Below are positions 26,237 through 36,616 of a stretch of 64,000 bases of DNA, one piece after another (the first letter of the stretch is position 1; each line of letters starts with the position of its first letter). Both the position numbers and the translations under genes were made by a program. Origin of the DNA: Limisphaerales bacterium (GTDB lineage: Bacteria > Verrucomicrobiota > Verrucomicrobiia > Limisphaerales > AAA164-E04); the NCBI GenBank assembly GCA_024761205.1, contig JAMASS010000008.1, positions 62,001 to 126,000 on the forward strand. The letters are read 5' to 3'. The notes under the pieces are model-generated. The model was not told the origin of the DNA, ran no database searches, and saw nothing but the letters and a program-made list of their open reading frames with translations.

Positions 26237-26314
26237 TTCGGCTTAAGTTTCTTGGTGCCGATGCCTCTTGACTCTGATTTCCGCTGAGAATCTGTGATTA
26301 AATCTACTTTTTAT

Positions 26315-27280
26315 ATGTCTGAAGAGAATACTGCTGAAGCGCCGACGAATCCCAGAACGAATCTTGCCGCCGAGTTTAGGGAGTTTTGGGATTTTCTCCC
26401 ACGTAAGCATGTGTTTGCTGTGTTAGCGATTAGTTGGTTGCTGTTGTTCCAGTTTCTAGGGAACTCCACCTTTGGCTATATCGATACGCCATCTCTGTTC
26501 ACGTGGATGTTTGCGGCTTATAATGCTCAGATGTCTGAAGATAGCCATGGGAATCTGATTCCGTTTGTGGTTTTGGGCCTGATTTGGTGGAAACGGCGGG
26601 AACTGATGTCGCTGCGTCTAGAGCCTTGGCATTGGGCACTCCCAATGTTCGTGGTGGCGGTCGTGCTCCATTCGGTCGGATTTGTCGCCCAGCAGCCAAG
26701 GATATCAATTCTGGCGTTGTTTTTTGGGTTTTATGCCATCATGGGGTTGTGCTGGGGACGGTCTTGGCTCAAGCATACTTTTTTCCCCTACTTCCTGGTA
26801 ATCTTCTGCGTGCCGATCGGTTCGTTGGCGCAGGGGATCACTTTTCCGTTGCGGATGTTGGTGACGCAGCTTTCGGTTGGATTTGCCTCAATCGTGCTTG
26901 GGTTGGAGATCGTTCGGGAGGGGACATTGATCTTTGATGCTGACAAATCGTTCCAGTATGATGTGGCGCCAGCGTGTAGTGGTATTCGGAGTTTGATCAC
27001 GCTGTTCGCCTTGACCACGATTTATGGCTTCATCACTTACCAGACGATGTGGCGGCGGTTGGTGATGATGGCAGTTTCGGTTCCGTTAGCTGTATTGGGT
27101 AATGTGCTGCGGGTTATCACCGTAATCGTTGTTGGCGATGTGTACGGGATGAAGGCTGGCTTAAACATCGAGCAGAAGCTGGGCCTTGTAACGTTTTTGG
27201 TCGCGATTGTTGGCGTGATGGTCTTGGGATACTTTTTGGATGAGAAAAGGTCGGGAATGGAGAAGCAGAATGAAAGCTGA
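26315..27280 (+). CDS. exosortase/archaeosortase-family membrane protease-transpeptidase
   Basis: This 321-residue, multi-pass inner-membrane protein belongs to the exosortase family, which cleaves C-terminal sorting tails of exported proteins. It shows the periplasmic EDSHGNLIPFVVL block near 75, the PYFLVIFCVPIG helix near 158-169, the catalytic cysteine in APACSGIRSL near 221 and the conserved arginine in GNVLRVI near 266. The downstream position where relatives have a histidine (usually H-[DE]-W-x-G) reads NIEQKLGLVTF here. A GTG at 26294 is an alternative start. The stop overlaps the next gene. No protein in this window carries an obvious PEP-CTERM tail, so substrates lie elsewhere. Confidence 0.88.
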   Translation: MSEENTAEAPTNPRTNLAAEFREFWDFLPRKHVFAVLAISWLLLFQFLGNSTFGYIDTPSLFTWMFAAYNAQMSEDSHGNLIPFVVLGLIWWKRRELMSLRLEPWHWALPMFVVAVVLHSVGFVAQQPRISILALFFGFYAIMGLCWGRSWLKHTFFPYFLVIFCVPIGSLAQGITFPLRMLVTQLSVGFASIVLGLEIVREGTLIFDADKSFQYDVAPACSGIRSLITLFALTTIYGFITYQTMWRRLVMMAVSVPLAVLGNVLRVITVIVVGDVYGMKAGLNIEQKLGLVTFLVAIVGVMVLGYFLDEKRSGMEKQNES

Positions 27281-28007
27281 GGAATGGAAAATTCCGGCGA
27301 TCGCCCTGTCAGTGATGTTGTTGGTGGTGCTGTTTTTGTCCTATTGGAAGACGAATCAGCGGCTCGGTGAACCTGGGATCAAAGTTGTAGCCGTGGGTGA
27401 GAATGGTGAACTGGATATCGAGTTTCCGGAGTTAGTTTTGGATTATGAAGGGAGAGTTCATCCTGTCAGTGAGGGAGTGATCAACACCTTGCCGGCCGAT
27501 ACCACCATCGGTATTCGAGCGTATAAGGCGCCGGATGGTTATGAGATGCAGGTCATGGGGGTGCTTATGGGGTCGGATCGAACGAGTATTCATCAGCCCG
27601 AATTCTGTCTCACCGGGAATGGATACCGCATTACGGGATCAAAGCTTGACACGGTCACCGTTCGCGGCCCGGAAACCTATGAGTTACCCGTGATGGTCAT
27701 TCGATGCGAGGCGCCCCTTAACGGTGTCATTTATCCGGCGTTCTATGTCTATTGGTTTGTTGCGGATGGGTTAGCGACCGCGCAACATTGGGAGCGGATG
27801 TGGCTGATGGCGAAAGGTCTGTTTACCACCGGGGAGCTACAGCGTTGGGCCTATGTCAGTTGCTTGGGGCTCGCCACGCCAGACAACGAAGAGGCCTACC
27901 TGAATCGGATCAAGGAATTTCTCGGCCACGCTATTCCCGATTTTCAACCACAGCCCAAGCTTTTGGTTGGCGGCTCTGAAGCGATCGGCCGAGCCGGATC
28001 AAAGTGA
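27270..28007 (+). CDS. exosortase-associated EpsI-like protein
   Basis: This 245-residue protein has one N-terminal membrane helix (IPAIALSVMLLVVLFLSYW) and a periplasmic domain. The block SIHQPEFCLTGNGYRI near residue 108 corresponds to the HxPExCxxGxGW signature of EpsI, which occurs beside or fused to exosortases. It ends with a helical region around GRAGSK. The ATG at 27270 overlaps the exosortase stop by 11 bases, so the two are translated together. It probably assists sorting or polysaccharide export. Confidence 0.85.
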   Translation: MKAEEWKIPAIALSVMLLVVLFLSYWKTNQRLGEPGIKVVAVGENGELDIEFPELVLDYEGRVHPVSEGVINTLPADTTIGIRAYKAPDGYEMQVMGVLMGSDRTSIHQPEFCLTGNGYRITGSKLDTVTVRGPETYELPVMVIRCEAPLNGVIYPAFYVYWFVADGLATAQHWERMWLMAKGLFTTGELQRWAYVSCLGLATPDNEEAYLNRIKEFLGHAIPDFQPQPKLLVGGSEAIGRAGSK

Positions 28008-28131
28008 GGGCGTCGCATTGGCTGGCAATGGGGACTAGGGTGGGCAAAAACACGAGGCTGCTGTGAATAGGTATCGTTTGTGCGGTGAGATGGGTTTTGC
28101 CTCGACGGCGAAATGATGGTGACTAAATTAT

Positions 28132-29550
28132 ATGTTACGGCGACAGCGACAAATTCGGAATGGCTTGCTGAAAATTGTCGATGGGGTGTTGTTCGCTCTC
28201 GGCTTCTTTCTCGCTTATTATGTGCGCTCCAGCGAAGTCTTCCTGGGGACCTTTGTCTTAGATTTCCTGGCGTTGTTTGGCGGGACGAAGGAGATTGAAA
28301 GTTTTGAGAGCTTTTTTCCGATTATGCTCCTCACCCTGCCGGTGTCGTTGGTTTTGCTGGAGTTTCTAGGATTCTATGATCGACCGCTGTTGCTCTCTCG
28401 AGGGAAAACGGCCTGGCAGCTCTTCAAAGTATGCGCCTTGGTAACGATCGCTTTGGTGTTAATGATGTTCTTGGTGCGAATTCAGCTTTCTCGTGCGGTG
28501 ATTATTTTATCTGGAGGGATCAGCTTCGTCCTGGTCATGGTTAAGGAGGAAGTGCTCCGTCGCTACGCAGAGTTGAATCTTGGTCGATCTCAATTTCGGC
28601 AGCGGTTTATTCTGATCGGTGCGTCCGAAGATACGCAAAAGCTTTATGACGATGTGCTTCAGGATTCGAAGTCAAACCTACAGGTCGTTGCCGATCTTGA
28701 TGTGAACCGGACCTCGGTGGAGGAGTTTCTTCGGCTGCTTCACGAACATTCGGCCAATGGGGTCATCATGTCGGCAAAGCATACGTTTTTTGGTCAGGTC
28801 GAGAAGGTCATCCAGGCTTGTGAACTGGAGGGGGTTGAAGTGTGGATGTTGGCAGATTTCTTCCATACGGAGATTTCTCGGACTATTCTGGATGACTTCA
28901 ATGGCTACCCCATGATGGTCTTCCGTTCGGCTCCTGATGTGTCTTGGCAAGCCGTGGCTAAGCAGACCATTGATCAGATTGGAGCCTGCGTGGCCTTGCT
29001 GGTCTTTGCCCCAATATTGGTTTTTTGTGCGATTAGCATTCGCTTGTCGTCTCCAGGGCCGATTCTCTTTCGTCAACAGCGTAGCGGGCTCAATGGGCGA
29101 CCGTTCGAGATGTATAAATTTCGCTCGATGGTGACCGACGCGGAGCAACAACGTCGGGAGCTTGAAGATATGAACGAGATGGACGGGCCTGTCTTCAAGT
29201 TGTCGGAAGATCCTCGGGTGACGTGGATTGGAAAGTTTTTGAGGCGACGAAGCTTTGACGAATTGCCACAGCTGTTCAATGTGTTAAAAGGGGAGATGAG
29301 TTTAGTGGGGCCGCGGCCGTTGCCCGTGGATGAAACGTTGCGATTTGATGATTTGGCGCATCGTCGGCGCTTGAGCGTCAAGCCTGGTTTGACTTGCCTT
29401 TGGCAGATCAGTGGCCGAAATGATGTGAAAGATTTTCAGGAATGGGTTCGATTGGACTTGGAGTATATCGACAACTGGTCCTTGTGGCTGGATGTAAAGA
29501 TTCTGTTGCGAACGGTGCCGGTGGTTTTGCTAGGAACGGGCGCAAAGTAG
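28132..29550 (+). CDS. polyprenyl-phosphate sugar phosphotransferase (WbaP-like initiating enzyme)
   Basis: This 472-residue enzyme starts exopolysaccharide synthesis by transferring a sugar-1-phosphate onto undecaprenyl phosphate. It has four N-terminal membrane helices (residues about 15-135), a soluble Rossmann-like domain (RFILIGASEDTQKLYDDVLQ near 160), and a re-entrant helix near 285. The catalytic domain has FRQQRSGLNGRPFEMYKFRS near 320, the acidic pair in KFLRRRSFDELPQLFNVLKG, and GPRPLPVDE and KPGLTCLWQISGRND. ATG 28132 is the chosen start. It follows the exosortase pair by about 125 bases and belongs functionally with wecG. Confidence 0.92.
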   Translation: MLRRQRQIRNGLLKIVDGVLFALGFFLAYYVRSSEVFLGTFVLDFLALFGGTKEIESFESFFPIMLLTLPVSLVLLEFLGFYDRPLLLSRGKTAWQLFKVCALVTIALVLMMFLVRIQLSRAVIILSGGISFVLVMVKEEVLRRYAELNLGRSQFRQRFILIGASEDTQKLYDDVLQDSKSNLQVVADLDVNRTSVEEFLRLLHEHSANGVIMSAKHTFFGQVEKVIQACELEGVEVWMLADFFHTEISRTILDDFNGYPMMVFRSAPDVSWQAVAKQTIDQIGACVALLVFAPILVFCAISIRLSSPGPILFRQQRSGLNGRPFEMYKFRSMVTDAEQQRRELEDMNEMDGPVFKLSEDPRVTWIGKFLRRRSFDELPQLFNVLKGEMSLVGPRPLPVDETLRFDDLAHRRRLSVKPGLTCLWQISGRNDVKDFQEWVRLDLEYIDNWSLWLDVKILLRTVPVVLLGTGAK

Positions 29551-29789
29551 AAACCGTCTAAGGGAGGGTGGAATCGGTCGTTGAATCTTGTGTATGTTTA
29601 GCCTCTCGAAGATGGAGACGCGAACTAGATTTGGCCGCAGTGGAGTGGGGGGATAGAAGCTGGCTTTTTCTATTTGACCCTCTCTGCAAATTCCAGTAAT
29701 TACCAACTTGAACTTCGCAACCTAAGCCAAATGGACGATTCACCCATGCCGGTTCTTTGTTGCCTCGTACAGAAAGAGAAGCGGATATT

Positions 29790-31637
29790 ATGAAGTCAAA
29801 ATCGTTTTTGGGGATCGACTTTGGGGCGGGCAGCCTGAAGATCGCCGAGTTCGAGCCGACCGAATCGGGCGGTATCTGCCTTCGTGCATTTGGTTCGCAT
29901 CCGCTCGGGCTCGCCGGCGCCCAAGAGGCTGTACGCGAGGGTGTCATCAAAAAGGCGATTCAAACGCTGTTGAGTGAGCAGCGGTTTTCCTCAAAGGATA
30001 TTAATGTTTGCGCGCCGGGATTTCATGTCTTTTCGAAGTTTGTGAAGTTGCCTCCGGTAGACTCGTCGAAGGTAACGCAGATTATTCAGTATGAAGCGCA
30101 GCAAAACGTTCCGTTTCCATTAGAAGAGGTGGTTTGGGATTATCAAATCCTTGGAGCCACCGGTAGCGGAGAGCTTGAGGTGCTGTTGGTCGCCATTAAG
30201 ACCGAGCTGGTCGAGAAGTTGTTTAAGACCGCTGAGTCCAACAACATGACGCTCAGCCTGGTTGATGTGGTGCCGTCTGCGCTTTGCAACGCGTTTCGAT
30301 ACAATTACGGCGATCTGAAGGGCTGCACGATGCTCCTAAACATCGGTGCGAAAACCAGTAACTTGCTCTTCTTTGAGGGTGGCAAAGTTTACTCTCGTAG
30401 CATCAACATCGGTGCGAATGCCATTACCCAGGAGTTTGCGAATGAGTCGAAGATCCGATTTCCCGATGCGGAGAAGTTTAAGATCGAAGAAGGTTTTGTG
30501 AGTCTTGGCGGCACCTATGAGGATCCCGATAATCCCAAGCAGGCGCAGATCTCAAAGATTGCTCGTCAGGTGATGACTCGTCTGCACATTCAGGTCAATC
30601 AGACCATGCAATTCTATCGCAGTCAGCAGGGTGGCTCGGCGCCCCAACGGCTTTTTCTGGCGGGCGGCGCTTCGATCATGCCTTACACGGCTCAGTTCTT
30701 CGCCGAAAAACTCAACGTTGAGGTCGAGTATTTCAATCCGTTCCGCACGATTCAGATTGATCCTTCCCTCAACTTGGAAGAATTGGCGAAAATTGCCCAC
30801 TCCTTCGGCGAAGTGGTCGGTTTGGGCCTGCGCCGGGTTGTGCAATGTCCGGTGGAGCTGAACTTAATGCCGAAATCGTCGCTGCGGCGACAAGAGTTCA
30901 ATCAGAAGAAGCCCTATTTTATTGCGACGGTGTTCAGCCTAGTGCTGGTGATCACGGCGATTGGTTGGTTCTTCTCCCAATTGACCCAGGAGAAGAATAA
31001 GGGAATCACGGTATTGAACGAACAGGCACAGCCTTTGCAGGCACTGTTAGACGAGTTGCAGCCGGAGGAGAACGCCTTGTCGAGCCAGATGGAGGAAGTT
31101 CGGGAGCTGACGCGATTTGTCCACGAGCGCTATTTCTGGCCAGATGTATTGACTGAAATCCTCAGTGCGATTTTGGCGGCGGAACGGGAAACCGAAAACA
31201 AACTGGGCGTTGATGCGGGAATCTGGATGACGTCGATCAAGCCGGATATTCCTGGCTTGGATGATTTGACCAAGGTCGAGGAAATCGATCTCTACGCGGA
31301 TGAGTCAGGCACCCAGCAGACCATGTGGCAGATGGATCGGGAAATGATGGAGCGGTATGGGCTGTTAGGCATGGAGGAAGAAGAGGAAGAAGAGGAAGAA
31401 GAGGAGGGGATCCTTACGCGGTTGAATCTGGTGTGCAAGGGCGTCAACCGCATTGGAATCAATCAGAACGCGAACAATCGATTGGCCTTTGAGTTGCTTT
31501 CACAACTTCACTCCCGAACAAATATCTTTGATCCGGCGGAAACCAAGCTCGTCGGCGATCTGGCGCCTGTGAGTGAGTCGGATAACACATTTGATTTTGA
31601 GGTGACAATCACGTTGGCAAACCCATTGGAACTCTAG
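29790..31637 (+). CDS. pilM: PilM-like actin-fold protein with PilN-like C-terminus (Amuc_1101 type)
   Basis: This 615-residue protein starts with SFLGIDFGAGSLKIAEFEPT, the phosphate-1 loop of the PilM/FtsA actin fold. It keeps NIGAKTSNLLFFEGGKVYSR near 194 and the adenosine block LFLAGGASIMPYTAQFFAEK near 288. A membrane helix (PYFIATVFSLVLVITAIGWF) near 372-391 is followed by a coiled-coil and a periplasmic domain. It is therefore a fusion of PilM with a PilN-like part, as in the Akkermansia Amuc_1101 context. An acidic run of about thirteen glutamates lies near residue 532. ATG 29790 is preferred to the TTG at 29757. It is the first gene of a four-gene operon; the next start is 4 bases after its stop. 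Confidence 0.88.
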   Translation: MKSKSFLGIDFGAGSLKIAEFEPTESGGICLRAFGSHPLGLAGAQEAVREGVIKKAIQTLLSEQRFSSKDINVCAPGFHVFSKFVKLPPVDSSKVTQIIQYEAQQNVPFPLEEVVWDYQILGATGSGELEVLLVAIKTELVEKLFKTAESNNMTLSLVDVVPSALCNAFRYNYGDLKGCTMLLNIGAKTSNLLFFEGGKVYSRSINIGANAITQEFANESKIRFPDAEKFKIEEGFVSLGGTYEDPDNPKQAQISKIARQVMTRLHIQVNQTMQFYRSQQGGSAPQRLFLAGGASIMPYTAQFFAEKLNVEVEYFNPFRTIQIDPSLNLEELAKIAHSFGEVVGLGLRRVVQCPVELNLMPKSSLRRQEFNQKKPYFIATVFSLVLVITAIGWFFSQLTQEKNKGITVLNEQAQPLQALLDELQPEENALSSQMEEVRELTRFVHERYFWPDVLTEILSAILAAERETENKLGVDAGIWMTSIKPDIPGLDDLTKVEEIDLYADESGTQQTMWQMDREMMERYGLLGMEEEEEEEEEEEGILTRLNLVCKGVNRIGINQNANNRLAFELLSQLHSRTNIFDPAETKLVGDLAPVSESDNTFDFEVTITLANPLEL

Positions 31638-31641
31638 AATT

Positions 31642-32868
31642 ATGAACTGGGTAAAAAGTAATCTTGGATTGATCATCGGAGGCGTGGTCGCCCTTGCCCT
31701 CATGGGAGTGGCAGGATGGTTTCTGTATACGCAGATGGAGGCTGAAAAAGCCGCTCAGGCAAGCCTTGAGCAGGGGATCATTAATTTGAAGAACTTGAAA
31801 AACCGCGACCCGCATCCGGGCGATCCGGCGCGGGGGATCGACAATATCGGCGCGGTCAAGAAAGAGCAGGAGAAGATTAATCGAACACTTCTTGAACCAT
31901 TGCGGGACTTGTTCAAATCCTTCGACGTGCCGAAAGATCTGGACACCTTCAAATTCAAGAGCTTGCTCGAGGATCGAATCGCAGCGCTGCAACGAGCCGC
32001 GGAGGGCGCGGGAACGGGACTGCCGAGCGAGGGCAATATGAATTTCAGCTTCTCCTTCGGAGACGTTCGGCCGAAGATGTCGTTCGCGCCGGAAACGTTG
32101 CAGCCAATGGCGTTTCAATTGATTCAGTTGGAATCCCTCTGCAAGGTTCTTTTTGATGCGAAGATCCATTCGATTAACAGCATCAAACGTCCTGAAGTGG
32201 CCGAAGCGGAGGAGGAGGAAGAAGAAAAGGAAGAAGAAGATGATTATTATGATGACGATATCTCGGCAAATCCATACGCAGGTTATACGAGTAGTTTCTC
32301 GTTAAGCTTGCCGAGTGACATCTACATTGATGACGTCCCTCTCACCAACGACATTACCGGTGCCATCATCTATCCTTTTCAACTGAGTTTCCAGTGCTTC
32401 AGCAGTGAACTCTCCGAGGTGATGGCCGGGCTGAACAACAACGAACATTTCTTCCGTGTCAAATGGTTGGTGGTAAAACAGTCGGCTGCGAGTAATCAGC
32501 AAATGGATCCCAACGAGGCACTCTATGGAACCGGCTCGCTGGATTCAGCCTACGCGGGAATGGATCCGGCATTAGCCCGTGGAATGACAGGCGCAGGGGA
32601 TGCGGGGCGCTATGGAGGTGCCTATGGAGGTGCCTATGGAGGTGCCTATGGAGGTGCCTATGGAGGTGCCTATGGAGGTGCCTATGGCGCCGGCTACGGA
32701 ATGATGCCACCAACGGGGATGATGACTGAAGATAACGCAATGGGTGATTTAGAAGAAAAACCATTGACGGTTAATATGCTTGTCGAGGTAATCTCCATCC
32801 CCACGCCGGTTGAAGAGTTAGAGGATAACCTTGATGGGGGCGATTTGTCGGGTTACGAGGCATACTGA
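31642..32868 (+). CDS. Amuc_1100-like membrane-anchored pilus/secretin scaffold protein
   Basis: This 408-residue protein has a single N-terminal helix (LGLIIGGVVALALMGVAGWF), a coiled coil, and two ferredoxin-like lobes. The lobes are recognisable in PMAFQLIQLESLCKVLFDAK near 155 and YPFQLSFQCFSSELSEVMAG near 235. This layout and the gene order match Akkermansia Amuc_1100, a PilO-like protein known for immune signalling in gut. Odd features are an acidic run (EEEEEEEKEEEDDYYDDD) near 193 and six perfect copies of a 12-bp unit coding Tyr-Gly-Gly-Ala near 324-347. These insertions make it longer than Amuc_1100 (317 residues). It probably spans inner membrane to secretin. Confidence 0.8.
   Translation: MNWVKSNLGLIIGGVVALALMGVAGWFLYTQMEAEKAAQASLEQGIINLKNLKNRDPHPGDPARGIDNIGAVKKEQEKINRTLLEPLRDLFKSFDVPKDLDTFKFKSLLEDRIAALQRAAEGAGTGLPSEGNMNFSFSFGDVRPKMSFAPETLQPMAFQLIQLESLCKVLFDAKIHSINSIKRPEVAEAEEEEEEKEEEDDYYDDDISANPYAGYTSSFSLSLPSDIYIDDVPLTNDITGAIIYPFQLSFQCFSSELSEVMAGLNNNEHFFRVKWLVVKQSAASNQQMDPNEALYGTGSLDSAYAGMDPALARGMTGAGDAGRYGGAYGGAYGGAYGGAYGGAYGGAYGAGYGMMPPTGMMTEDNAMGDLEEKPLTVNMLVEVISIPTPVEELEDNLDGGDLSGYEAY
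32611..32682 (+). repeat. six perfect tandem copies of a 12-bp unit inside the Amuc_1100-like gene
   Basis: TATGGAGGTGCC is repeated six times without a mismatch from 32611 to 32682, and a seventh partial copy (TATGGCGCC) follows. Each unit codes Tyr-Gly-Gly-Ala and changes in copy number keep the frame. Perfect identity implies recent expansion or frequent slippage. Confidence 0.95.
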
Positions 32869-32889: not shown

Positions 32890-33681
32890 ATGGAGTTCCT
32901 TAAGAAACACTACGAGAAAGTCATTCTCAGTATCGTGTTATTGCTGTTGGCAGTGGCAGCTGCTTACCTGCCGATCAGGGTTGCTGCGGTGAACAAGAAT
33001 ATTGAAGACGAGATTATTGGTGGCGCTCCGAAGCCGTTTATCCCGCTCGACATCAGCACCAACATCGCCACGCTTAATCGAGCGCGTAAATCTCAGCTGA
33101 AGCTCTCCGGGCCGGAGCATAATCTGTTCAATCCCGTAGGATGGGTGAAAAGCAAGGAGGGGAATCTGCTCAAGGATCCCTTCTATGGTCGAAAGGGGCC
33201 GGAGGCGTTGGTGTTGACCAATACGGTTCCGCTGTACTTCCGGGTGAAGTACGATCGTCTGGTCCAAGATGGAGATGAGATCAAATATTATTTTGGTGTG
33301 ACCCGGGAAGCGGAGACCAAGAGAAGAGATCGTCGACTCGTCACGCGGGTGATCCGAGCGCGTGACAAAAATGACATCTTCATTCTGAAAGAAGTAAAAG
33401 GTGCACCGACTCAACCGGAGGGATTCGTGATTACCCTCCTGGCGGACAATCGGGAGATTTTCGTCAGCTGCCAAGAACCGTATTCGGAAATCGCCGGGTA
33501 CACTGCTGATCTCGTTTATCCGCCGGAAGGCGGGAAGAAGTTTAACGCCAGGCGACGAGGGGACAAAATTACGATTGCCAAGAAATCGTACGAAGTCGTC
33601 GTCGTATTGGAAAATGAGGTTGTCATCAAAGACACCAAAACAACCAAGCAAACGACGGTGCGGTTAAATGCGTCCGAGTAA
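32890..33681 (+). CDS. Amuc_1099-like bitopic membrane protein
   Basis: This 263-residue protein has an N-terminal helix (YEKVILSIVLLLLAVAAAYL) after a short positively charged start. A periplasmic region follows, rich in beta strands and ending in a basic domain (RRGDKITIAKKSYEVVVVLE). No enzymatic motif is visible. It lies between the Amuc_1100-like gene and the secretin gene, the same place as Amuc_1099. A PilP-like role, linking inner-membrane proteins to the secretin, is the natural inference. Spacing to the previous gene is 21 bases. Confidence 0.7.
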   Translation: MEFLKKHYEKVILSIVLLLLAVAAAYLPIRVAAVNKNIEDEIIGGAPKPFIPLDISTNIATLNRARKSQLKLSGPEHNLFNPVGWVKSKEGNLLKDPFYGRKGPEALVLTNTVPLYFRVKYDRLVQDGDEIKYYFGVTREAETKRRDRRLVTRVIRARDKNDIFILKEVKGAPTQPEGFVITLLADNREIFVSCQEPYSEIAGYTADLVYPPEGGKKFNARRRGDKITIAKKSYEVVVVLENEVVIKDTKTTKQTTVRLNASE

Positions 33682-33727
33682 TTTTTGTAATTGTATGGGT
33701 CCCGAATTGAAAGCGAACCAGACTATT

Positions 33728-36616
33728 ATGCTACGTGCGTTTAGAATAGCGATGAATCTGACGGTGGCGGTCGCCGCTACCATGACGGCAATAGGTCAGC
33801 CTACCCAATCTCTGGTTCAGGATGAAATAGTGCGTCGGGAGGAGGCTCTCATTATCTTGCGAATGAAACTTGAGCAGGCGGAGGCGCTGAAGGTGGAGGG
33901 TGAGCTCATGAAAGCTGCGTTGATGTACGAAGAGGCGGTCCGGCAGTTGGAGCTTGTTGGGGAGATTCCGCAAGTTGAGGCTGAACGCGAGCGCACTTTG
34001 GCCGGGATGTCCAGTGTACGATTGAAGCTAGCTGCGATTAATCAGCGAAACAATGAGCTTGTCGAGGCAGATAAGCAGGTGGTTCGTGTTCTGAAGCTGA
34101 ACCCCAATGACGGTGCCGCGCTAAAATTCAAAGAGGCCAATGATAAGTTGCTGGCGCAGAATCGTGGCAAGGCACCTAGCCGGGAGACCCTGTCCCTCAT
34201 GCCCGAAATTGCCGAAGCCAAGATAGGAGCATCGGTTCTCGTGCAGGATGCCAAGCTGCTGTTAGAGGCCAATCAACTGGAAAAGGCGGAAGCTAAGCTG
34301 CTACAGGCGGTCAAGGAAGATCCGGAGAATCGTGCTGTTTGGCATTATCGATCCATCTTGGCTGAAAAGAAATATGCTCGGGAGGCTCGCAAACGGGAGA
34401 TCCATTCCAAAGTTAAGATGGTGGAGGTTGAAAAGGCTTGGTCGCCGCCTTTGCAGCGGCATCTATTGCCGGAGCCCAACCCTTACGTCCGGACGAACTT
34501 GATTCATACTGGTTCGGGACGGCAGAGGATTCAGTCGAAGTTGAACCGAATCGTCCTTGATCAAGTGCTTTTCGATGGCTTGCCTTTGAGCGAAGTGGTC
34601 CGGTTTTTATACGACGAGGCGCTGAAGCGGGATCCGGACAATGAGGGCATCAACTTTTTGGTGAATCCGAATATCGATACGCAACCTCCATTTACCCCCT
34701 TGAACATCGGTCCTTCGACCGGGTTTCCAGCCCCGGCTTTGCCGGCTGAAGATATTGACTTGTATAGTGTCAGCATCAACATCAACCCCCCCTTGCGGAA
34801 TGTGAAGCTGAAACACGTGGTAGAGGCGGTGGCTCGGGTTGCAGACACGCAACTTAAGGTGTCGGTTGAAGAGTACGCCGTTGTGTTCTCGAAACTGGTG
34901 GAAAACCCAGAGCCGCTCTATACCCGGCGCTACCGCGTTGATCCGAACACCTTCATTCAGGGGATGGAAGGTGTGACAGGTATTTTTCTTGATTCGTTGA
35001 TCCAGAGCACCGGCGGCGGCGGTGGCGGCTTTGGCGGCGGCGGTGGCGGCTTTGGCGGCGGCGGTGGCGGCTTTGGCGGCGGCGGTGGCGGCGGCGCTTC
35101 TCTGCCAATTTTAGGTATTGATCCCACCGGCTTGGGTGGTGGTGCCGGGGGTGGACTCGGCGGCGGCGGCTTTGGCGGCGGCGGCGGCATTGGCGGCGGC
35201 GGTCAGGGTGGCTTTAATCAGTTTGGGGCAGGCGGTTTCTCGGGTGTTTCTCGAGTGACTCTCATGCAAGACGTGCAGGTCTTGGTTCGCAACTTCTTCG
35301 CCGCTGCAGGCGTTAATTTCACACCCGGTCAGATCATTGGCGGGGGCCAGCAAGGCGGTGTTGGCTTGGGCGGCGGCGGCTTCGGTGGTGGCACTGCAGC
35401 CGGTGGCTTCGGTGACGGCCTCGGTGTTGGGGGGCCGAATGTTAGCAGCAAGGCTGTGTTTTTCAATGACCGAACGGGTATTCTGTTTGTCCGAGCAACG
35501 TTGACTGATTTGGACATTATTGAAGAAGCCATAGCAGCGTTGAACGAGGCGCCACCGCAATTGACGATTGAGGCGAAGTTTGCCGAGTTTACCCAGGATG
35601 ATGGCAGAGCTTTGGGCTTTGATTGGCTGTTGGGCAACACGCTCATTAACGGCGGCAAGATTGCCGGACAAGGGGGGAGTGCTCCCTCAATGAACGGTCA
35701 GCCTTCGGCCGCAAACTCGACGGGGCTGTTCCCTGCCACGGGTGGCGCGCCCACGGCGAACCCGGATGTGGCTAACGACCAGCTGTTGAGCAACGGGCTG
35801 CGAAACTTTGGGCCTGATGGCAATGTGTTCCCCTCCGTCGCCACGTTCACTGGTATTCTGACCGATCCGCAATTTAGAGTGGTCATTCGCGCGCTAGAAC
35901 AACGCGCAGGCATTGATATCCTAGCAGCGCCGGTGATTACTACGTTGAGCGGTCGACAGGCCACTATCAAGGCCAATGATATTCAGTCAATTGTTGTCGG
36001 TAACAACGCGAACCAGCAGGGTGGTGGTGGTGGTGGTGGTATTGTTGGTGGTACTGGTGCTGGTGTTGGTGGTGTCGGCGTCGGTGGTAGCGGAGTGATC
36101 GGAACCACGATCCAGCCGCAAACCGTTCCGATCCCGGTTGGTCCGACCTTGGATTTGGTGCCCTACGTTTCGGCCGATGGCTATTCCATCCAGATGACGA
36201 TTCTCCCGTCACTGATCGAATTTGTCGGATACGATGATCCGGGACCGTTTGCTGTGGTTGCGCAGGGTGGTGCGGGGAACACAGTTGGCGTCTCTTTGAC
36301 AGCTCAGTTGCCGTTGCCCCGTCTGCGAGTTCGACAAGTGGTGACGAGTGCCATCGTTTGGGACGGCCAAACGGTGTTTCTCGGGGGGTTGATGGCGGAG
36401 AATGTCCAGAAGACCAAGGACAAGATTCCGGTTTTGGGGGATATTCCCTTTTTGGGACGGCTGTTCCGTAGTGAATCTTCCTTCACTCAGAAGAAGAACC
36501 TGGCGATTTTCGTGACGCCCAAGATCATTGATCCGGCTGGTAACAGGGTCCATACTGAAGATAATCTTCCTTATGACCCTTCTACCGTGCCGCCTCAGGA
36601 GGCTCCTTTGAACTAA
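33728..36616 (+). CDS. outer-membrane secretin (GspD/PilQ superfamily, Amuc_1098 type)
   Basis: This 962-residue protein begins with a signal peptide (LTVAVAATMTAIGQP), then TPR-like helices (ALMYEEAVRQLELVG, LLEANQLEKAEAKLLQAVKE) to about residue 230. A plug-like and N-domain region follows, containing LNRIVLDQVLFDGLPLSEVV and ILFVRATLTDLDIIEEAIAA. The secretin pore domain has ITTLSGRQATIKANDIQSIV near 740 and the closing block TVFLGGLMAENVQKTKDKIP with VLGDIPFLGRLF near 890-920. Long glycine-rich inserts interrupt it near residues 430-495, 540-565 and 765-790. The frame is open to 33668, but ATG 33728 gives the better signal peptide. It would form the outer-membrane channel of the operon's complex. 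Confidence 0.9.
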   Translation: MLRAFRIAMNLTVAVAATMTAIGQPTQSLVQDEIVRREEALIILRMKLEQAEALKVEGELMKAALMYEEAVRQLELVGEIPQVEAERERTLAGMSSVRLKLAAINQRNNELVEADKQVVRVLKLNPNDGAALKFKEANDKLLAQNRGKAPSRETLSLMPEIAEAKIGASVLVQDAKLLLEANQLEKAEAKLLQAVKEDPENRAVWHYRSILAEKKYAREARKREIHSKVKMVEVEKAWSPPLQRHLLPEPNPYVRTNLIHTGSGRQRIQSKLNRIVLDQVLFDGLPLSEVVRFLYDEALKRDPDNEGINFLVNPNIDTQPPFTPLNIGPSTGFPAPALPAEDIDLYSVSININPPLRNVKLKHVVEAVARVADTQLKVSVEEYAVVFSKLVENPEPLYTRRYRVDPNTFIQGMEGVTGIFLDSLIQSTGGGGGGFGGGGGGFGGGGGGFGGGGGGGASLPILGIDPTGLGGGAGGGLGGGGFGGGGGIGGGGQGGFNQFGAGGFSGVSRVTLMQDVQVLVRNFFAAAGVNFTPGQIIGGGQQGGVGLGGGGFGGGTAAGGFGDGLGVGGPNVSSKAVFFNDRTGILFVRATLTDLDIIEEAIAALNEAPPQLTIEAKFAEFTQDDGRALGFDWLLGNTLINGGKIAGQGGSAPSMNGQPSAANSTGLFPATGGAPTANPDVANDQLLSNGLRNFGPDGNVFPSVATFTGILTDPQFRVVIRALEQRAGIDILAAPVITTLSGRQATIKANDIQSIVVGNNANQQGGGGGGGIVGGTGAGVGGVGVGGSGVIGTTIQPQTVPIPVGPTLDLVPYVSADGYSIQMTILPSLIEFVGYDDPGPFAVVAQGGAGNTVGVSLTAQLPLPRLRVRQVVTSAIVWDGQTVFLGGLMAENVQKTKDKIPVLGDIPFLGRLFRSESSFTQKKNLAIFVTPKIIDPAGNRVHTEDNLPYDPSTVPPQEAPLN
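35012..35095 (+). repeat. 21-bp tandem repeats coding a glycine-rich linker in the secretin
   Basis: The unit GGCGGCGGTGGCGGCTTTGGC recurs about three and a half times, coding GGGGGFG. Related glycine-rich stretches occur at 35155-35210, 35335-35430 and 36016-36100, the last with a run of GGT triplets. The high identity points to slippage-driven growth. No spacer structure is present. Confidence 0.85.

Follow-up and report, generated by a model that had tools for sequence, protein, structure and literature searches.

The window, the whole 64,000-nucleotide stretch of DNA analyzed here, contains an operon that encodes, in order, a PilM/PilN-like fusion, an Amuc_1100-like (PilO-like) protein, a third protein and a secretin (Table 1). 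The third gene occupies what we take to be the position of Amuc_1099/PilP. The N-terminal region of the secretin gave TPR matches under the Pfam cut-off, and passages of PMC4960237 describe N-terminal TPRs in the Akkermansia secretin. Directly upstream of the operon, at 26294-29550, genes for an exosortase, an EpsI-like (DUF3485) protein and a sugar transferase form a PEP-CTERM/EPS-type locus.

Table 1. Genes, tandem arrays and motif copies of the pilus-like operon, with positions in the window.
Feature	Position	Strand	Basis or description
PilM/PilN-like fusion, Amuc_1101-like	29757..31637	+	PF11104 (PilM_2) 3.8e-34; NF045709 474.8 bits, cut-off 650
Intact motif in PilN part	31332..31373	+	MDREMMERYGLLGM; profile E 2e-6; low-confidence loop, predicted short helix
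9-bp array, 3.6 copies, 100%	31374..31405	+	Codes poly-Glu directly after the PilN motif
Amuc_1100-like / PilO-like protein, 408 aa	31642..32868	+	NCBIfam NF038287 and Foldseek
Linker between beta strands 3 and 4, about residues 285-370	32494..32751	+	AF2 model, mostly pLDDT <50
Degenerate first copy of the MDPxLAxRYG motif in PilO-like protein	32560..32580	+	MDPALAR
Second motif copy, at head of tandem array	32608..32616	+	RYG
Perfect 12-bp tandem array, 6.5 copies	32610..32687	+	Residues 324-349, (YGGA)n of PilO-like protein
Third operon gene	32890..33681	+	No Pfam or NCBIfam match
Secretin, Amuc_1098-like	33668..36616	+	333.7 bits, cut-off 750
Three Gly-rich arrays in secretin gene	35012-35092, 35158-35202, 36020-36074		35012-35092 is a perfect 21-bp unit x 3.9

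The repeat lies in a PilO-like protein of an Amuc_1100-type operon

The gene that carries the repeat had been predicted to be Amuc_1100-like, and this was borne out by its fold and its operon, though its family sequence score is under the cut-off. The match to NF038287 scored 57.7 bits (E 1.2e-15) against a curated cut-off of 180 bits, so that by NCBI's rule the protein is Amuc_1100-like and not a member of the family. When its AlphaFold model was searched with Foldseek, the best matches were the Amuc_1100 crystal structures 6laf, 6kny and 6lad (E about 1e-6 (7e-7)). Comparison by VIA showed the Amuc_1100 fold (Z 17.6, 176 residues, rmsd 4.7) as well as the PilO fold, the PilO-like periplasmic domain aligning with Pseudomonas PilO 2rjz_B at Z 10.0 (119 residues, rmsd 4.4) and with 5uvr at Z 8.0. 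Foldseek to PilO reached only E 0.29, and a sequence search of the PDB gave chance-level matches only (E 0.86 and 1.2). The operon of the window also holds the Amuc_1101-like and Amuc_1098-like genes of an Amuc_1100 operon.

A further 100 operons were fetched, each selected for a PilO-like match. With that of the window, they comprise 67 order-level operons, from what appear to be Limisphaerales-like Verrucomicrobia, and 34 class-level operons, the latter from other orders of the class, about one per family. All 101 yielded the PilM/N gene, 91 the third gene and 95 that of the secretin, some loci being cut by contig ends. The contigs of L075, L076, L094, L097, L098, L100, L111, L115 and L123 end inside the secretin gene, perhaps because Gly-rich repeats broke the assembly. 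Two records, L280 (Akkermansia muciniphila) and L294 (Candidatus Omnitrophota), have PilM/N genes 54% and 57% identical, respectively, to the window's type, and their titles look wrong.

The last two beta strands of the PilO-like model (residues 270-280 and 375-385) are joined by the linker, in which pLDDT is below 50 at residues 285-289, 295-308, 314-355 and 357-368. Because these low values run across residues 314-355, the array falls within a predicted disordered insert, in agreement, as far as the model goes, with the exposed linker that had been proposed for it. We assume that this loop and the other motif-bearing loops and tails described below lie on the periplasmic side.

The 12-bp array is a DNA duplication of apparently recent origin

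The original prediction placed six identical 12-bp copies at 32611-32682. These are exact, with the unit TATGGAGGTGCC, and the exact period covers 78 bp. The frame of the gene reads them as (YGGA)6, the Tyr-Gly-Gly-Ala repeat that had been described, and the unit sits in frame within the coding sequence, consistent with the claim that copies could be gained or lost without loss of frame. The longest period-matched run of the array is 66 bases; when the window was simulated 100 times under a third-order Markov model, the maximum was 14. If only the amino-acid repeat is taken as given, local codon usage would produce identical codons in all six copies with P ~8e-10; thus, the array reflects duplication of DNA and not protein-level selection alone. 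No second site with two consecutive units (at most 3 mismatches) was found elsewhere in the organism's own 4.94-Mb genome. Opposite the array, on the minus strand at 32459-32764, a shadow ORF of 101 aa that contains an HRHL repeat is most likely mechanical. Taken alone, the repeat would be an ordinary in-frame minisatellite.

None of the 29 other homologues examined first has an exact run of this kind. Among them, L014 is cut, and the PilO-like frames of L012 and L031 look shifted: that of L012 changes character in a Gly-rich stretch and that of L031 before the second strand, in both cases as if frameshifted or misassembled. Across 153 distinct homologous genes, the window's included, the array is the longest, with the next longest matched run being 25 bases. 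At the place of the array, two of the nearest relatives read RYGGAYGGGGYGAGGYGG (L007) and several RYGM/RYGG (L008), and neither has such an array, so that the array most simply arose after that split. The recent origin suggested for the copies is therefore the simplest account, and the array is most simply a recent expansion, presumably by slippage.

A short motif is kept or lost jointly in the PilO-like and PilM/N proteins

Many order-level PilO-like linkers contain RYG, often as MDPxLAxRYG[LIM], and the loop of motif-bearing members holds one to four copies of the motif. The PilN part of the PilM/N fusion carries MDxxMMxRYGLxP. In the PilM/N model, the motif of the window forms a short helix (residues 524-529) within a low-confidence loop (498-523 and 533-546), with strands 483-492 and 548-560 around it. 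The PilN loop and the PilO loop are non-equivalent, and common descent of the two domains therefore does not explain the shared motif. At the site of the first PilO-like copy, where L007 has MDPSLAARYGM and L008 has MDPGLAARYGM, the window now reads MDPALAR-GM. Two side observations concern the motif in relatives: one linker, that of L087 (G023), holds four copies of ~20 residues with MD....xRYG[IL]G, a protein-level amplification without exact DNA repeats, and G054 (L113, L384) has a deviant RYG[RK][FL][LM] in its PilO-like, PilM/N and CvpA-like proteins, an apparent dialect.

When RYG was counted over whole proteins in the 67 order-level operons, it was present in both proteins in 34 and absent from both in 26; 4 had it in PilM/N only and 3 in PilO only. 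About 40% of the order-level operons thus lack the motif in both proteins with the machine still present. RYG was absent from the PilO-like proteins of the class-level operons (0/34); its occurrences in 6 of the 34 class-level PilM/N proteins were not counted as the motif, since they stand in other contexts, mostly LTLxRYG. In a second set of 80 loci, which overlaps the first in genomes, 77 had both genes, with RYG in both proteins in 41, in neither in 26, and in one only in 5 and 5. The other two operon proteins were rejected as carriers, having sporadic RYG (3 P and 6 Q ORFs in the order-level set) without the flanks.

Counted in the loops alone, over a tree of 66 operons, the motif was in both proteins in 33, in neither in 27 and discordant in 6, i.e., kept or lost together in 60 of 66. 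L088, whose PilM/N is truncated, is absent from the tree, and L108, whose PilO RYG lies outside the linker, entered the whole-protein count and was left out of the loop count. Each trait changes 11 times on this tree, and the observed correlation was reached in none of 5000 simulations of independent traits, which used a tree made quickly from the PilM part only. An independent-pairs test confined to well-supported branches gave a median p of 0.25 from too few pairs. The residues that flank RYG were also matched: with one genome taken from each of 20 families, PilO-like and PilM/N flanks scored 11.5 BLOSUM units within a genome vs 1.7 between genomes, a difference reached in 0 of 20,000 permutations.

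The motif is dispersed over unrelated membrane and exported proteins

A strict DNA pattern for MDx5RYG also matched other places in the relatives, and 20 of the most motif-like of these matches were fetched. At these sites, the motif lies in ORFs of unrelated families, some of them from the same genome. In 97 genomes, a looser pattern matched 115 times vs 30 times for a backward control. From 34 peptides, in which MD and L are nearly invariant and which were partly chosen for these residues, we built a profile of 17 columns. Among the matches listed for the 97 genomes, 91 had E <0.01: 21 in PilM/N, 11 in PilO-like proteins and 59 elsewhere, the last in 27 genomes with a best E of 2.5e-8. Since 14 dispersed proteins supplied profile peptides, their own E-values are optimistic. 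With the reversed profile, 30 matches reached E up to 1, none of them below 0.04. A search of 188 genomes of the class, which included 155 from other orders, left no match outside the order below 0.01 (best 0.0156). A literature search on Verrucomicrobia, protein sorting and periplasmic short linear motifs found nothing on the RYG motif.

The proteins were catalogued in 54 ORF rows, some of which represent one gene in two loci. They include VWA proteins whose N-terminus is anti-sigma-like, proteins resembling ABC-2 permeases or CvpA, TPR proteins, an alpha-2-macroglobulin and proteins that match no family; the motif is either internal, often near the C-terminus, or at the very C-terminus. Among motif proteins of at least 250 aa from 40 loci, 32 of 35, some of them mutual homologues, have a transmembrane- or signal-like segment, vs 38 of 132 neighboring genes. 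In the organism's own genome, the intact motif occurs in PilM/N and in a CvpA-like protein (E 1.4e-5; L247:2456-3832), which reads MSPEMAARYGLWPGQ before its C-terminal domain and whose neighboring genes we read as a sigma factor and an anti-sigma protein. The CvpA-like Pfam match is just under the cut-off for L172 and absent for the own genome's copy. The motif in the abhydrolase of L176 could be due to chance, and a pattern MDVV[LM]MGRYG looks like a separate conserved protein. In one family of membrane proteins, the motif lies at the C-terminus or close to it in L167, L168 and L185, and is internal in L258, L260 and L263; the first three also have all or part of a stretch like YPESLEALVPE...LYSVGxNGxDDGG, which recalls pseudopilins. 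When gene families were clustered, L168 stood outside this cluster.

The presence of the motif outside the operon followed its presence within the operon. Of the 31 genomes whose two pilus proteins both carry the motif, 18 had matches outside the operon at E <0.01 and 13 had none, vs matches in 1 of 25 genomes with the motif in neither (Fisher 1.4e-5, a test that, like the next, ignores relatedness). The CvpA-like protein, encoded unlinked to the pilus operon, was found in 90 of the 97 genomes and read in 69 of these. RYG occurred anywhere in its tail in 20 of 31 "both" genomes, leaving 11 without it, vs 1 of 22 "neither" genomes (Fisher 8.7e-6), in none of 3 discordant genomes, and in 8 of 13 genomes with operon status not assigned. 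For this count, G056, the genome of L088, was set by hand to "both" from whole-protein RYG; in the "neither" genome G047, the CvpA-like ORF is cut by a contig end and has hardly any tail, and leaving out G047 gives 1 of 21. Flanks of the CvpA-like motif resembled those of PilM/N of the same genome less clearly, with the likeness reached in 10 of 20,000 permutations over 20 genomes and in 548 of 20,000 over 12 families with one genome each; their likeness to PilO-like flanks was not significant (2887 of 20,000).

Proposed explanation for the array and the motif

The joint presence of the motif in three protein families, the matching flanks of the pilus pair and the membrane or export context favor a docking motif. 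A short conserved motif, unrelated proteins and disorder, the marks of a docking short linear motif, were all found here, with disorder modelled for the two pilus proteins only. We hypothesized that one Tyr-Gly-Gly-Ala unit was expanded by slippage in a PilO-like protein that would belong to a type IV pilus-like machine, within a disordered periplasmic loop that evolves fast. In motif-bearing members of the order, the short peptide MDxxMMxRYGLxP would be displayed by this loop, by the PilN-like region encoded upstream and by many unrelated proteins that are membrane-bound or exported; a common periplasmic receptor would read the peptide as a docking motif. Gly-rich or acidic repeats beside the motif may act as adjustable spacers. 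In the species of the window, the PilN copy would have stayed intact and the PilO copy may have decayed into an RYGGA(YGGA)n tract. This joint reading, of a slippage-expanded array in a loop that presents a docking motif for a common receptor, with the repeats as spacers, is the one that we favor, if only slightly.

The array might instead be the result of neutral slippage in a weakly constrained linker, unrelated to the motif, a possibility to which we give an even chance. Linkers are unequal in length and of low complexity across 28 aligned homologues, tandem runs of at least two copies occur in 10 of the 153 homologous genes (not all within the linker), and arrays are dense in the operon, as expected of low-complexity coding DNA. 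Five of the six arrays of the window with a score of at least 50 lie within the operon, between 31374 and 36074, and these 5 in 6.86 kb compare with 12 in a 358-kb sample of the own genome (Poisson P 4e-6, in a test run only after the clustering had been noticed). The PilO-like motif of the window is moreover degenerate, and the array may thus represent decay rather than function. However, the array starts precisely on the Y of the retained RYG, where the nearest relatives have RYGG, and neutrality of the array leaves the conservation of the motif elsewhere unexplained. For the array itself, a recent expansion in a tolerant spacer is the best reading.

For the motif, we also considered a role of RYG as a generic Arg/Tyr sticker of Gly-rich linkers, which would cluster envelope proteins without a dedicated receptor. 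Linkers rich in RYGG/YGG in the genus, and the location of the motif in loops modelled with low confidence in the two pilus proteins and often near C-termini, are as this would predict. We nevertheless regard it as unlikely, because conservation extends beyond RYG to the nearly invariant MD and L (in peptides partly chosen for them), because the flanks in the pilus pair are genome-specific, and because 44 of the 54 catalogued ORF rows have a single copy at the score used. Quite unlikely, too, is a length-variable contingency locus, in which the copy number would vary among cells and tune the pilus machine: the copies are perfect, the unit is in frame and the copy number exceeds that of every other array in the window and in the 358-kb sample (1.9 to 3.3 copies in the latter), but a 12-bp unit in a coding frame cannot switch the frame, no frame or promoter shift of the phase-variation type arises, and the two closest relatives are without such an array. 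Copying of the motif between proteins by a mobile DNA element or gene conversion, which could account for its presence in unrelated proteins of one genome and for the like flanks of the pilus pair, is very improbable given the non-equivalent PilN and PilO loops and the finding that 82 of 140 same-residue codon pairs between copies within four genomes differ synonymously, a difference that led us to reject a mobile element as the source and indicates that selection acts on the peptide.

Returning to the docking motif, the fact that both platform subunits and envelope proteins share it, and that its flanks in the pilus pair are matched within genomes, leads us to expect a specific receptor. We sought this receptor in the N-terminal region of the secretin and among the neighbors of motif genes, and neither search identified one. 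The N-terminal (TPR-like) region of the secretin was considered as a receptor that would disappear along with the motif. All 63 order-level secretin ORFs have this region, 30 of them from operons with the motif in both pilus proteins, 27 from operons with it in neither and 6 from mixed ones, and its loss thus does not explain the loss of the motif; the motif may still bind this region. Among families common to at least three genomes at 40 loci, no general neighbor of motif genes was found. By eye, the recurrent neighbors include what reads as a sigma factor beside VWA genes and, beside CvpA-like genes, putative sigma-factor, anti-sigma-like and polyprenyl-synthetase-like proteins.

As a tentative extension, which we consider possible rather than probable, the motif may define a periplasmic addressing system of Limisphaerales-type Verrucomicrobia. 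A co-evolving receptor would read the tag MDxxMMxRYGLxP, 10-13 residues long, in disordered loops and C-termini and couple envelope proteins to the pilus platform, and expansion of adjoining repeats would tune reach or valency. A docking role would give a function to fast-changing low-complexity loops, which are usually ignored.

Comparison with known systems

The protein of the window resembles Amuc_1100 of Akkermansia muciniphila in its fold, its N-terminal TM helix and its place between PilM-like and secretin genes, and differs from the Amuc_1100 family (NF038287) in scoring well under the cut-off. RYG and an array of this kind are absent from all 34 class-level PilO-like proteins, including those of L128 and L166, which come from a group with many matches over the NF038287 cut-off and are presumably Akkermansia. 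The PilO-like periplasmic domain and the operon with PilM and secretin are also those of the PilN/PilO platform of type IV pili (2rjz, 5uvr). Unlike that platform, the machine described here has long disordered inserts with a common peptide motif, and its PilM and PilN are fused.

In-frame coding tandem repeats have reportedly been found in Legionella as intragenic repeats, and the array is similar to these in consisting of perfect short in-frame repeats inside a gene, here known from one genome of the species. For the dispersed motif, GlyGly-CTERM/rhombosortase is said to be a comparable dispersed short signal system, and PMC1569441 describes PEP-CTERM/exosortase as a dispersed short signal on exported proteins. 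Like both signals, the RYG motif is spread over unrelated exported proteins and is present or absent genome by genome. Unlike PEP-CTERM, in which a C-terminal motif is followed by a TM helix and a basic cluster, it has neither of these as part of the motif: it is internal in PilN and PilO, and in the other proteins it is often internal or occupies the last residues without a TM helix. There is precedent for dispersed short peptide signals pointing to unknown machinery, PEP-CTERM having led to the exosortase.
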